Both the position numbers and the translations under genes were made by a program. From NCBI GenBank assembly GCA_024742605.1, contig JANSYC010000021.1:1-58474 (forward strand): a stretch of 58,474 nt of DNA. Reading direction: 5' to 3'. Positions within the stretch are counted from its first letter, which is position 1; each line of letters begins with the position of its first letter. The notes under the pieces were generated by a model. That model was not told the DNA's origin. It searched no databases and worked only from the letters and a program-made list of their open reading frames with translations. Of the stretch, positions 13,042-16,893 are shown piece after piece. Source of the DNA: Alphaproteobacteria bacterium. Lineage in GTDB: Bacteria > Pseudomonadota > Alphaproteobacteria > Thalassobaculales > Thalassobaculaceae.

Positions 13042-14226
13042 ATGTCCTTGGCTCCGCCCTCCGGTTCGGTCGCAACCGATCTTCCGATTCAACGGCTGCT
13101 ACTCGGGGTTCTCGGGGCCCTCACCCTGGCGCTCTGGGGACATCTGGCCACGCAATCGGTCACTCAGGCCCTGCTTCTGCCGATCGGGATTGGACTCGGG
13201 ATCTCGCTCTATCATGCCAGATTCGGCTTCACTTCGGCCTATCGCCGGGCAATGGCCGAAAAGGATATGACCGGTCTGGTCGCGCAGGCTTTCATGCTGA
13301 CCGTCGCCATGAGCCTGTTCGCTCCGGTTCTGTCGGCGGGGGAGATCTTCGGGCACTCGGCGGGTGGTGCGGTGGCGCCGGTAGATACCGCCATGCTGAT
13401 CGGCGCTTTCGTCTTCGGGATCGGCATGCAACTCGGCGGGGGCTGCGCGTCCGGCACGTTGTTCACGGTCGGCGGGGGCAATATCCGGATGATGGTGACC
13501 TTGGTGTTCTTCTGCCTCGGATGCTGGCTGGCCACCCTGAACATGGCCGAATGGCGCACCCTGCCGAGCCTGGGGGCGGTCTCCCTCGGACGAGAGATCG
13601 GCTACGGACCGGCGGTCGCCTTTCAGATTGCGGCCCTGGGATTGATCCTGATCGGACTGTGGCGGACCGGCGCCCGGATCCGAGGGCCGTTGTGGCAGAG
13701 CGGGTTCACCTGGCGGCGGGCGATCCGGGGCCCGTGGCCGCTGCTGCTGGGCGCCGTCGGGCTGGCGGGGCTGAACTTCGCGATCCTTGCCGTGGCGGGT
13801 CATCCCTGGGGCGTGACCTGGGGCTATACGATTTGGGCGGGTAAGGTTGCGGTGGCTCTCGGATGGGATCCGGCGAGCTCAGCCTACTGGGCGACGTCCT
13901 GGCGGGCTGGGGCGCTCGACGCCTCGATCCTGTCCGATCACAGCTCCCTCACCAATATCGGCATCCTGATCGGCGCCGCGATGGCGGGCTCTCTGGCCGG
14001 CAAGGTGCATCCAAATTGGCGGATACCCCTGAGATCCCTGATCGCGGCGGTTCTGGGCGGTCTGATGATGGGGTACGGCGCGCGATTGGCCTATGGCTGC
14101 AATATCGGTGCATTCTTCTCAGGGGTGGCCTCCACCAGCCTTCATGGCTGGGCCTGGATCGTGATGGCGATGGCCGGATGCTGGATCGGCATCCGCTTGC
14201 GACCGGTCTTCCAGCTGAAGGGCTGA
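13042..14226 (+). CDS. YeeE/YedE-family sulfur (thiosulfate-type) transporter
   Basis: Polytopic membrane protein of 394 residues in the YeeE/YedE family, whose studied members (TsuA) import thiosulfate. Two internally similar halves each hold a Gly/Cys motif facing the pore: GIGMQLGGGCASGTLF in the first half and GYGARLAYGCNIGAF, with a preceding GGLMM, in the second. Those cysteines are the residues known to relay thiosulfate. The fusion of two half-repeats in one chain corresponds to the long form of the family. It starts 8 bases after the DUF302 gene, so they are cotranscribed. A metallo-beta-lactamase-fold protein follows after 143 bases. Confidence 0.85.
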   Translation: MSLAPPSGSVATDLPIQRLLLGVLGALTLALWGHLATQSVTQALLLPIGIGLGISLYHARFGFTSAYRRAMAEKDMTGLVAQAFMLTVAMSLFAPVLSAGEIFGHSAGGAVAPVDTAMLIGAFVFGIGMQLGGGCASGTLFTVGGGNIRMMVTLVFFCLGCWLATLNMAEWRTLPSLGAVSLGREIGYGPAVAFQIAALGLILIGLWRTGARIRGPLWQSGFTWRRAIRGPWPLLLGAVGLAGLNFAILAVAGHPWGVTWGYTIWAGKVAVALGWDPASSAYWATSWRAGALDASILSDHSSLTNIGILIGAAMAGSLAGKVHPNWRIPLRSLIAAVLGGLMMGYGARLAYGCNIGAFFSGVASTSLHGWAWIVMAMAGCWIGIRLRPVFQLKG

Positions 14227-14369
14227 TCTTCAATCTTCCGTGAAGGGCCCTGTCCGCAAGCGCTTCGATCTTTGACTTCTCCGAACCGCGCATCACATTA
14301 GCGCCACGCCGAGCGAATGCGCACGGCTCCGCTGCCGATATCGCCTGGAACCACTAAGGGAGCAAACTC

Positions 14370-15353
14370 ATGGTCCAGATCAGCCGTCGCGCCGCCCTCG
14401 CGGGCGTCACCGCCACCTCCGCTCTTGCCCTGACGGGCGGGTTTGGACTCTCTCAGCCGGCGCAGGCCGCCGCTCCGATGAAGGGCCCGCTGCGCCCGTC
14501 CGTCTATCGGTTCAAGCTTGGCGGTTTCGAGGTCGCTACTGTTTTCGACGGTTCGATCCAGCTGGACGGTCCACATCCGATCTTCGGCCAGGATCAGGAG
14601 GCCGCCGATGTGCAGACCCTGCTGGAGGCCAATCTGCTGCCGACCGAGCGTTTTGAGATCGGGTTCACGCCCACGATCGTGAACACCGGCAACGAACTGG
14701 TCCTTTTCGACGCCGGCAACGGGGCCGGACGGCGCCCGGATGCGGGCTCGCTCCGGGCCCGTCTGACCGAAGCCGGGTATCCGCCGGAATCGATCGACGT
14801 GGTGGTGCTGACCCATTTCCATCCCGACCATATCGGTGGCCTGATGGAGGACGGCAGCCCCGCCTTCCCGAATGCCCGCTACGTCACCAGTTCGACCGAA
14901 TACGATTTCTGGTCGCCGGAGGAAAAAGCCTCGGGACCAACCGAGCGGGTCGGCAAGCTGGTGCAGGCCAACGTGGTGCCGTTCGCCGACAAAATGAGCT
15001 TCATCGGCGATGGAGACCAGGTGGTCTCGGGGATCACCGGGCTGGCCGCCAATGGCCATACGCCGGGGCATATGGTGTTCCACCTGGAGAGTGAGGGCAA
15101 ACGGTTCGCCATCACCGCCGACACCGCCAACCATTTCATCGTGTCGCTGCAGAAGCCGGACTGGCATGTGCGGTTCGACATGGACAAGGCCGCCGCCGCC
15201 AAGGCCAGGCGGGACGTCTTCGGCATGCTGGCCGCCGACAAGATCCCGTTCGCCGGCTATCACATGCCGTTCCCTTCGGTCGGCTTTGTGGAGCCGCTTG
15301 CGGGCGGCGGCTTCCGGTACGTTCCGGCCAGCTACCAGCTCGATCTCGGGTGA
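14370..15353 (+). CDS. Tat-exported metallo-beta-lactamase-fold hydrolase
   Basis: Metal-dependent hydrolase of 327 residues. Residues 1-34 are a signal peptide with the twin-arginine pattern ISRRAALAG followed by a hydrophobic stretch and an AQAA cleavage site, so it should be folded before export to the periplasm. The dinuclear metal site is seen as THFHPDHIGG at residues 148-157, ANGHTPGH further on, and TADTANH. The overall pattern is that of the quorum-quenching/AHL-lactonase-like and sulfatase-like subgroup rather than persulfide dioxygenases. It follows the DUF302 and YeeE genes on the same strand. If they act together, a periplasmic sulfur-compound hydrolase is possible, but this is inference. 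Confidence 0.85.
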   Translation: MVQISRRAALAGVTATSALALTGGFGLSQPAQAAAPMKGPLRPSVYRFKLGGFEVATVFDGSIQLDGPHPIFGQDQEAADVQTLLEANLLPTERFEIGFTPTIVNTGNELVLFDAGNGAGRRPDAGSLRARLTEAGYPPESIDVVVLTHFHPDHIGGLMEDGSPAFPNARYVTSSTEYDFWSPEEKASGPTERVGKLVQANVVPFADKMSFIGDGDQVVSGITGLAANGHTPGHMVFHLESEGKRFAITADTANHFIVSLQKPDWHVRFDMDKAAAAKARRDVFGMLAADKIPFAGYHMPFPSVGFVEPLAGGGFRYVPASYQLDLG

Positions 15354-15433: not shown

Positions 15434-15462
15434 TTGACAGGGCGGGTCGAACATCGCACTTT
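15434..15462 (+). promoter_or_regulatory. Probable promoter of the SAM riboswitch leader
   Basis: TTGACA is a perfect -35 hexamer at 15434-15439. A 17-base spacer leads to CACTTT at 15457-15462, a weak -10. The predicted start site (about 15467-15469) falls exactly at the first base of the SAM-II P1 stem, which supports the assignment despite the poor -10. Confidence 0.5.
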
Positions 15463-15465
15463 GGG

Positions 15466-15523
15466 CCAGCGCCGATTTGAAACCAGATTGCGGGCGCTTT
15501 ACAAATGCGGCTAAACGGAAGGT
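15466..15523 (+). ncRNA. SAM-II (SAM-alpha) riboswitch aptamer
   Basis: S-adenosylmethionine-binding pseudoknot aptamer. P1 is formed by AGCGCC at 15468-15473 and GGCGCT at 15493-15498. The conserved loop GATTTGAAACC, then GATTGC, and the 3' strand ACAAATGCGGCTAAACGG align almost base for base with the known SAM-II core (GAUUUAA, UUGC, AAAUG, GCUAAA). The pseudoknot is closed by TTGC with GCGG and by ACC at 15482-15484 with GGT at 15521-15523. The aptamer ends one base before an intrinsic terminator, so SAM binding probably controls transcription read-through into the DmdA-like gene. Identification rests on comparison with the family as I remember it. Confidence 0.9.
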
Positions 15524-15524
15524 G

Positions 15525-15557
15525 AAAACCGCCCGGCCGCGCCGAGGCGGTTTTTTT
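15525..15557 (+). terminator. Intrinsic terminator of the SAM-II riboswitch
   Basis: AAAACCGCC pairs with GGCGGTTTT around a 12-base loop and is followed by an unbroken run of seven T. It starts directly at the 3' edge of the SAM-II pseudoknot. The ACC/GGT closing pair of the aptamer and the stem base are adjacent, so the expression platform is very compact. Confidence 0.9.
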
Positions 15558-15598
15558 GTCCCGGTACGCGCATGATGACTGGCCTGGTCCACCTACGG

Positions 15599-15650
15599 AC
15601 CCCCGGTGATTTGAGGGGCAGCTTGCTCCGGGTAACCAAAAGCTAAAGCG
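15599..15650 (+). ncRNA. Second SAM-responsive aptamer candidate (SAM-V-like)
   Basis: A second pseudoknot with the SAM-II/SAM-V core lies between the terminator and the start codon. P1 is CCCGG at 15602-15606 with CCGGG at 15628-15632. The loop repeats the SAM-II signature GATTTGA, then GCTTGC. P2 is AGCTT at 15620-15624 with AAGCT at 15640-15644, leading into GCTAAAGCG, which matches the conserved GCUAAA of both classes. SAM-V aptamers are known from marine alphaproteobacteria and share the SAM-II binding core; a SAM-II then SAM-V tandem has been described there. The position 47 bases before the ATG favours control of translation. Alternatively it could be a degenerate second SAM-II copy. 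Confidence 0.72.
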
Positions 15651-15690
15651 TTTCGGTATCGACCGCCCCTCTGAGCAAGAGACGAGGGAG
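15613..15690 (+). promoter_or_regulatory. Competing pairings around the Shine-Dalgarno of the DmdA-like gene
   Basis: GAGGGGC inside the second aptamer (15613-15619) is perfectly complementary to GCCCCTC (15665-15671). The same CCCTC can instead pair with GAGGG of the Shine-Dalgarno (15684-15688). The two pairings exclude each other, which is the layout expected of a translational switch. Which state is SAM-bound cannot be decided from sequence. Confidence 0.5.
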
Positions 15691-15696
15691 TGAGCT

Positions 15697-16893
15697 ATGA
15701 CCGACACGTTGACCCGAACCCGCCCTGCCCTTCAGACCGCATCCGTGGACCCGGTCGACCCGACCCTGGTGATGGGGCCGCGGGTCCGGACCTCGCCCTA
15801 TTTCGCGGCCACCAAACGCTGGGGCGCCACGGCCTTCACGATCTACAATCACATGTACATGCCGGTCGCTTACCGGGGCGAGGCCGACTACTGGTCGTTG
15901 ATCAACGACGTCACAATCTGGGATGTGGCGGCCGAACGGCAGGTGGAAATTGCCGGGCCGGACGCAGCCGCGTTCACCCAATATCTTACCCCTCGCGATC
16001 TGTCGAAAACCCGGCCGGGCCAGGCGAAATATATCCTCGTCTGCGATCACGACGGCGGGGTCCTGAACGATCCGTTGCTGCTGAAACTGGCAGAAGATCG
16101 GTTTTGGCTGTCACTCGCGGACGGCGATCTGCTGCTCTGGGTCAAGGCGCTGGCGCAGACCGGAGGCTGGGACGTGACGGTGACAGAACCGGACGTCTCC
16201 CCGCTGCAGGTGCAGGGCCCGAAATCGGGGGCCTTGATGCGCAAGGTGTTCGGTACGTGGATCGATGAGCTGAAGTACTTTCAGTTTCGGGAAACCGAAT
16301 TGGACGGTGCCCCGCTCCTGGTAGCCCGCACCGGCTGGTCCGGCGAGTTCGGCTACGAGATCTTTCTGCGCGACGCCCGTTATGGCGAAGCCTTGTGGGA
16401 GAGACTGTTCGAGCTCGGCCAGCAGTTCGATGTCGCGCCGGCCGGACCCAACGCCATCCGTCGCATCGAGGCGGGCCTGTTGTCCTATGGCGCCGACATG
16501 ACGGCGGACCATAATCCGTTCGAGCTTGGCTTGGACCGGCTGGTCAGCGAGACTTTGGACACCGACTATATCGGCAAGGCCGCTCTGCAGCGTATCCGGC
16601 AGACTGGCGTGACGCGGAAGCTGATCGGCATCGAGATCTTCGGCACGCCGCTCGCAGCCAATCTCGACAGATGGACGGCCCGTTTCGGCGGCACCGGGAA
16701 TCCGGGGCTTGTTACAAGCGCCATTCACTCCCCTCGGCTGCAAAAGAACATCGCCATCGGTTATGCACCGATTGAGAACAGCGAGATCGGAACCGGAGTG
16801 ATCGTCGACACGCCGGACGGACCGCGCGCCGGGACCGTGGTGGCCATTCCCTTTGTCGACCCCGCGAAAGCCCTTGCGCGAGGGCCGCACTGA
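15697..16893 (+). CDS. DmdA-like (DMSP demethylase/GcvT family) tetrahydrofolate methyltransferase
   Basis: Folate-dependent aminomethyltransferase-family enzyme of 398 residues. It strongly resembles DMSP demethylase DmdA: an early YNHMYMPV segment, WDVAAERQVEIAGPDA, LTPRDLSK, LNDPLLLKLAEDRFWLSLADGDLL, and EPDVSPLQVQGPKSG are all DmdA-like. At the place where DmdA has a Lys-Gln-Gly-Gly loop (WSKQGGFEIY), this protein has WSGEFGYEIF, closer to GcvT and dimethylglycine-demethylase relatives. It may therefore demethylate DMSP or a related methylated donor to give methyl-THF. The other glycine-cleavage genes are absent. Expression is predicted to be governed by the tandem SAM leader. GAGGGAG lies six bases before the ATG. 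Confidence 0.8.
   Translation: MTDTLTRTRPALQTASVDPVDPTLVMGPRVRTSPYFAATKRWGATAFTIYNHMYMPVAYRGEADYWSLINDVTIWDVAAERQVEIAGPDAAAFTQYLTPRDLSKTRPGQAKYILVCDHDGGVLNDPLLLKLAEDRFWLSLADGDLLLWVKALAQTGGWDVTVTEPDVSPLQVQGPKSGALMRKVFGTWIDELKYFQFRETELDGAPLLVARTGWSGEFGYEIFLRDARYGEALWERLFELGQQFDVAPAGPNAIRRIEAGLLSYGADMTADHNPFELGLDRLVSETLDTDYIGKAALQRIRQTGVTRKLIGIEIFGTPLAANLDRWTARFGGTGNPGLVTSAIHSPRLQKNIAIGYAPIENSEIGTGVIVDTPDGPRAGTVVAIPFVDPAKALARGPH

Follow-up and report, generated by a model that had tools for sequence, protein, structure and literature searches.

Two RNA elements with the SAM-II core stand in series before a DmdA-like gene in Thalassobaculaceae

The leader of a DmdA-like gene in a marine alphaproteobacterium carries two RNA elements built around the SAM-II binding core, one behind the other, and probably senses SAM in two stages on a transcript that holds this gene alone, both stages being turned OFF by SAM; SAM binding, the switching directions and the chemistry of the enzyme are what we infer from the parts listed below. 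The leader lies in a 58,474-nt stretch of DNA (contig JANSYC010000021.1, from a member of the Thalassobaculaceae), the whole of which is called the window here. From 5′ to 3′, the sequence reads TTGACA, SAM-II aptamer, terminator with seven Ts, linker, second pseudoknot with the SAM-II core, and Shine-Dalgarno sequence, and each of the parts that a sequence-only reading had assigned to this one leader is found there, from the −35 box and the SAM-II aptamer through the terminator to the second pseudoknot built on that core and the Shine-Dalgarno sequence. The parts themselves, their conservation and covariation, the promoter and start-codon spacing, and the gene family were established by computation. 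The features are as follows (window coordinates).

15434-15696, + strand: leader of 263 nt preceding the 398-codon gene, read from the sequence
15434-15462, + strand: promoter, with −35 TTGACA (15434-15439), a 17-nt spacer and a weak −10-like CACTTT (15457-15462)
15468-15518, + strand: element 1, predicted SAM-II aptamer (Rfam SAM_alpha, 39.1 bits; 94% identity in four genomes), with P1 AGCGCC (15468-15473) / GGCGCT (15493-15498), GATTTG (15474-15479), TTGC (15488-15491), GCTAAA (15510-15515) and a short P2a, CC/GG
15524-15557, + strand: intrinsic terminator, a 14-bp stem with one bulge, followed by 7 T
15586-15601, + strand: small hairpin GGTCC/GGACC adjoining P1 of element 2 on its 5′ side, seen by eye in many relatives
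15602-15671, + strand: element 2, putative SAM-II subtype (93% identity in four genomes), with P1 CCCGG (15602-15606) / CCGGG (15628-15632), GATTTG (15608-15613), P2a 5′ strand GAGGGGC (15613-15619), AGCTTGC (15620-15626), a 9-nt J TAACCAAAA (15633-15641), GCTAAAGCG (15642-15650), inserted hairpin CGGT (15654-15657) / ACCG (15662-15665) and P2a 3′ strand GCCCCTC (15665-15671)
15684-15690, + strand: Shine-Dalgarno sequence GAGGGAG, 12 nt 3′ of P2a, with complementarity to CCCTC in the 3′ strand of P2a
15697-16893, + strand: DmdA-like gene with its ATG at 15697, encoding a 398-residue GcvT-fold protein, a predicted folate-dependent methyltransferase

In the proposed mechanism, transcription would start at the foot of element 1. 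With SAM bound, the L1 and P2 strands of element 1 would be held in the pseudoknot, the terminator would fold and the transcript would stop near 15557; at low SAM, part of this RNA would pair otherwise and the polymerase would read through. The read-through mRNA would carry element 2, the putative SAM-II subtype with its P2 interrupted by a hairpin, and the SAM-bound pseudoknot of this element, ending ∼25 nt before the start codon, most likely hinders loading of the 30S subunit, making the second stage OFF by SAM as well. The DmdA/GcvT-family enzyme probably takes a methyl group off a methylated substrate and passes it to tetrahydrofolate, in support of methionine and, through it, SAM synthesis; low SAM would turn this putative methyl-salvage enzyme on.

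An Rfam search over the whole window gave a single match, to SAM_alpha (RF00521), at 15459-15534 with 39.1 bits and E = 2.5e-5. Element 1 passes the gathering score of that model (36) and is predicted to be a canonical SAM-II pseudoknot that would bind SAM; a match over threshold with a terminator behind it speaks for the two-stage model. RcsR1, isrK and further Rfam hits within the leader fell below threshold and were dismissed. TTGAC is found 40-44 nt before GATTTG in 22 of the 24 first-position or terminator-type SAM-II elements collected (chance expectation, 0.08 matches per 180 nt upstream), and this constant distance indicates that the aptamer begins at the transcription start, at the foot of P1, in agreement with the start predicted in the sequence-only reading. 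Because a generic sigma-70 scan of the leader returned no promoter, the −10 box counts as inferred. The window terminator alone folds at −21.8 kcal/mol. When the SAM-bound state of element 1 was mimicked in folding by withholding the L1 and P2 strands, a proxy that ignores the energy of the pseudoknot, pairing of the terminator rose from 0.36, 0.76 and 0.89 to 0.99-1.00 in three relatives. In the window it is 1.00 with or without these strands. The prediction that this terminator folds in the absence of SAM too counts against the model, and the switch margin is invisible to folding; with a P2a of only 2-3 bp in element 1, the antiterminator is weak. The other SAM-II element of this genome (L001; G000:C138:1025-1103, 48.4 bits) also has a terminator and precedes a metY/metZ-like gene.

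The gene is present in 4 of the 36 genomes of the window's family, with orthologues of 75-78% protein identity in Thalassobaculum litoreum (locus L035) and two related MAGs (L033 and L034), and all orthologous loci (four genomes with the window, that is, three Thalassobaculaceae relatives) carry both elements. Mean pairwise identity over the four genomes is 0.94 in the core of element 1 and 0.93 in element 2; it is 0.56 in the promoter stretch, 0.65 from P2 to the terminator, 0.47 in the linker, 0.51 from element 2 to the ATG and 0.39 in the first 60 nt of coding sequence, a pattern that seems hard to account for except by selection on two RNAs. In L033 (2742-3000; G035) and L034 (2786-3040; G034), an N-terminal extension, variable and ∼85 residues long, is found on the DmdA-like protein directly behind the riboswitch; the window and L035 proteins lack it. 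No operon-like co-directional neighbor of the gene was seen among the adjacent genes. The genes upstream (13042-15353) encode a YeeE/YedE-like sulfur transport protein and an MBL-fold protein nearest AidB-type lactonases, and neither is present upstream of the orthologous gene in L035; an operon with the neighbors was rejected on these grounds.

The gene product matches Pfam GCV_T (8e-52), and its best solved relative is Pelagibacter DmdA (3tfh), but it scores 394.9 bits against the NCBIfam DmdA model (NF009133), below the cut-off of 410. The same genome encodes a bona fide DmdA elsewhere (G000:C167:15231-16352; 623.2 bits), with the SKQGG motif of 3tfh, and another DmdA-like paralogue (C23:26605-27720; 369.7 bits). 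In a 95-row tree, in which 3tfh forms a long branch and which was built without the Ruegeria and SAR92 reference enzymes, the 3tfh clade (18 rows, 100/100) includes the C167 protein and excludes the window protein, which falls in another well-supported group (63 rows, 100/98) together with marine gamma- and alphaproteobacterial paralogues. By its sequence, then, the gene appears to be a DmdA paralogue in a sister clade, outside the DmdA clade, and not the organism's DmdA. We consider it unlikely, though a reading of some weight, that the leader controls a genuine DMSP demethylase and thereby ties DMSP demethylation to SAM: the kinship to 3tfh, the IWDVAAERQVE motif shared with Pelagibacter DmdA, the functional SAR92 DmdAs with only 38-40% identity to the Ruegeria enzyme (PMC10746254) and the production of DMSP by Thalassobaculum salexigens (PMC5395565) all favor it, but the sub-threshold score compared with 623 bits for the genome's other copy, the exclusion from the 3tfh clade and the replacement of SKQGG by SGEFG weigh against it.

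A covariance model, R1, built from 26 relatives of element 2 (described below), did not find the leader at the C167 DmdA or the C23 paralogue, and when it was run over 93 sources (the window, 90 DmdA-like loci and the stretches with C23 and C167; the known carriers L033-L035 were omitted), only the window matched; a looser pattern search for the leader found only the window's orthologues. The leader is therefore specific to this orthologue group, and the thought that other DmdA-like genes might carry it does not hold for the 90 loci or for C23 and C167. Of the earlier proposal, a DmdA-like gene behind the leader stands, since the protein belongs to the DmdA family; the direct link between DMSP demethylation and SAM stays a proposal, given the score below cut-off, the position outside the DmdA clade and the lack of the leader at the genome's own DmdA. 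The device itself is real and conserved, and of a known kind. Folate-transfer chemistry is usual in GcvT-fold proteins, as in DmdA, and the gene product may supply 5-methyl-THF for methionine synthesis. With this gene, SAM-riboswitch control would reach beyond methionine and sulfur assimilation, to an enzyme of the DmdA family in marine bacteria, and it offers a handle on the role of the paralogue clade, namely that of an enzyme wanted at low SAM if the usual logic holds.

Element 2 contains GATTTGA, TTGC and GCTAAA, with GATTTG, TTGC and GCTAAA arranged in an H-type pseudoknot (P1 and P2) that has no P3. P2a does not continue beside P2b: a hairpin intervenes between GCUAAAGCG and the P2a 3′ strand. 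Rfam SAM_alpha, the only riboswitch model that matches element 2, gives it 22.6 bits (E = 0.005 in 407 nt), below the gathering score of 36, which is a search threshold and not a structural feature. Because almost all the second-type elements scored fall below the RF00521 threshold, we call element 2 a SAM-II subtype, one whose P2 takes up an extra hairpin; by its sequence it is neither a SAM-V riboswitch nor a plain SAM-II member. The sequence-only reading would have counted as refuted if covariance models did not recognize the second element, and half of this came true: the SAM-V model gives no match, the SAM-II model a sub-threshold one.

When 385 species of the class were searched at the DNA level, sequences similar to element 2 turned up in 41 genomes. 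The 26 elements that were aligned have P1, GATTTG, AGCTTGC and GCTAAAGCG in common, with the core invariant or nearly so; in most of them a hairpin comes next (often CCACGGAG..CUCCGUGG; weak or unclear in L103, L104, L108 and L111), and then a P2a 3′ strand that pairs with L1. The covariation score is 0.198 compared with 0.142 in shuffles, none of 500 of which reaches 0.198; the number of paired cells likewise beats the shuffles (0/500), and both measures beat all slid versions of the structure. Each element's own P1 and P2a strands make a better fit than swapped strands do (0/300), and one P1 pair changes from G-C (19 elements) to C-G (6 elements, including the window's group). Model R1, trained on these elements, element 2 among them, scores element 2 at 77.4 bits and matches 71 of the 385 alphaproteobacterial species and 21 of the 36 family genomes; for comparison, a SAM_alpha match of any kind over the cut-off is found in 167 of the 385. 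At the loci scored with Rfam, elements of the second type mostly reach 24-32 bits or are not listed (window copy, 22.6; L035 copy, 22.4), and a single one, L106, passes, with 36.8. In a previous regulon study that covered ∼200 genomes, SAM_alpha was reported from Rhizobiales and Rhodobacterales alone (PMC4239095). Because the Rfam SAM-II model puts most examined copies of the subtype below threshold, and the subtype occurs in about a fifth of the sampled alphaproteobacterial species, SAM regulons there are probably undercounted.

Among the loci read, the targets of the subtype are mostly sulfur and methionine genes: metY/metZ, metX, metN, cysG, a sulfite/nitrite-reductase-like gene and, by eye, an apparent cysH. 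In a pattern search, another SAM-II core lies upstream of 19 of the 44 elements scored as lacking a following T-run, a set that includes a few first-position elements with a T-run outside the test. The frequent placement of the subtype behind a SAM-II aptamer and terminator and ahead of sulfur and methionine genes speaks for the two-stage model.

In 20 of 28 elements, GCUAAAGCG is followed by the start codon at a distance of 45-54 nt, and mostly 20-34 nt separate the end of the P2a 3′ strand from the start codon; this fixed spacing fits control of ribosome loading, that is, of translation. Over the same 28 elements, the Shine-Dalgarno sequence is on average no more complementary to the RNA upstream of it than shuffled sequences are, and pairing of the Shine-Dalgarno sequence with the inserted hairpin or P2a was rejected as a family mechanism for this reason. 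In two loci, L116 and L122, the loop and 3′ arm of the inserted hairpin are complementary to the Shine-Dalgarno sequence over 9-10 bp (z = −2.2 and −2.7).

The location of the Shine-Dalgarno sequence outside P2a counts against the two-stage model, as does the pseudoknot-free folding of the DmdA-like group, which suggests the opposite direction: in all four DmdA-like leaders, withholding the pseudoknot strands to imitate SAM binding (an approach that ignores the energy of the pseudoknot, which is beyond what the folding model can score) opens the Shine-Dalgarno sequence, from 0.21 to 0.55, 0.44 to 0.60, 0.39 to 0.77 and 0.23 to 0.58 (z = 1.3-1.9 relative to shifted-block controls), an effect that disappears once the 3′ strand of P2a is no longer withheld. 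Element 2 might accordingly be modeled as an ON switch in which, without SAM, GCCCCTC (15665-15671) would pair with GAGGG of the Shine-Dalgarno sequence and block translation, and in which the SAM-bound P2 would free it; by eye, a purine-rich L1 and a pyrimidine-rich 3′ strand are seen in most of the family. We judge this unlikely, though a serious rival, for over the 28 family members the opening is weak (mean z 0.6; above 1 in 9, below −1 in 2), the Shine-Dalgarno complementarity is that of shuffled sequences, an ON switch makes no obvious sense for the metY, metX and cysG genes that carry the same subtype, and the pseudoknot is beyond the folding model, with a 7-bp P2a that may form without SAM. 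More doubtful still is the corollary that such an ON switch behind an OFF terminator would give the best expression at intermediate SAM, a band-pass made from two copies of one aptamer class. We prefer translational OFF control by steric hindrance, since biosynthetic genes expected to be off at high SAM are under the control of this subtype too.

It is very unlikely that the SAM-II attenuator works alone, next to a copy that has decayed or does not bind SAM, as the sub-threshold Rfam score of 22.6 for element 2 and the Pelagibacter SAM-II/SAM-V tandem, in which the linker masked the SAM-II domain in vitro (PMC11508383), might suggest, in view of the 93% identity in four genomes compared with ∼50% in the flanks, the nearly invariant binding core in 26 elements, the covariation and the presence of the subtype in 71 of 385 species. 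The remaining reading, that element 2 is a SAM-V riboswitch, as the sequence-only reading had supposed, can be set aside: the core bases, the second position and the adjoining start codon are as in SAM-V, and the SAM-II and SAM-V cores are nearly superimposable (PMC6061858), but the defining features of SAM-V are a P3 stem-loop that follows P1 and a short P2a with the Shine-Dalgarno sequence inside it (PMC6061858), while element 2 has a J too short for a P3 and a Shine-Dalgarno sequence outside P2a, RF01826 has no match in the leader at E ≤ 10 or in 20 related loci at E ≤ 0.5, and SAM-V occurs in 1 of the 36 family genomes, which is not the window's. That one SAM-V match over the cut-off is L183 (G024:C3:118425-118494; 42.3 bits).

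Tandem SAM-II control, of transcription and then of translation, has already been described, and what is new here is the target gene and the subtype of the second aptamer. The closest precedent, as far as the parts of the source we drew on go, is the SAM-II/SAM-II doublets reported in 2022 (44 examples, some bi-mechanism; PMC9481103), which share two SAM-II aptamers in series, in some cases with the terminator first and the second aptamer apparently at the ribosome-binding site; the leader described here differs in its DmdA-like target, the hairpin in P2 of the second aptamer and a Shine-Dalgarno sequence outside P2a. The precedent first cited for this leader, the SAM-II/SAM-V tandem, is a known system, located before bhmT in ‘Ca. 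Pelagibacter ubique’ (PMC11508383, PMC5069961), with the same transcription-then-translation layout, likewise in a marine alphaproteobacterium and at a one-carbon/methionine gene, but its second element is SAM-V and its gene is bhmT; it is a precedent beside the doublets, which are closer. In Pelagibacter, the DmdA protein is unchanged under sulfur limitation (PMC5069961). Compared with SAM-II (RF00521) at metZ and metA of Sinorhizobium meliloti (PMC9373788), both elements share the core and the pseudoknot, and element 1 appears to be a plain member with a terminator; the Shine-Dalgarno sequence of S. meliloti metA is inside the riboswitch (PMC9373788), whereas that of element 2 is beyond P2a, and P2 has the extra hairpin. 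The protein resembles DmdA (3tfh; NF009133) in fold and much of its sequence and differs from it in clade, family score and active-region motif. In open-access full texts, supplements aside, our search turned up neither a SAM riboswitch upstream of a DmdA-like gene, a pairing that the sequence-only reading likewise did not know to have been described, nor a SAM-II subtype with a hairpin in P2.

Several smaller features recur at loci with the subtype. A GGUCC/GGACC hairpin adjoins P1 of element 2 in many species (window 15586-15601, L103, L108, L115, L116, L123 and L130), and GGACC is found again just 5′ of the Shine-Dalgarno sequence in L115, L116, L124 and L127. At two loci of family genomes, L166 and L170, element 2 precedes a small membrane-protein-like ORF of 82-88 residues with no obvious sulfur role. 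In L129, L126, L106, L107 and L109, short ORFs starting from the riboswitch-proximal Shine-Dalgarno sequence have Cys/Arg runs just before the stop codon (MTPMRKSILCCCR, ...RKSCRRSCCC, ...RRCRCRT) and in several cases precede metN-type genes; by their sequences, they look like cysteine-responsive leader peptides under a SAM-II riboswitch.
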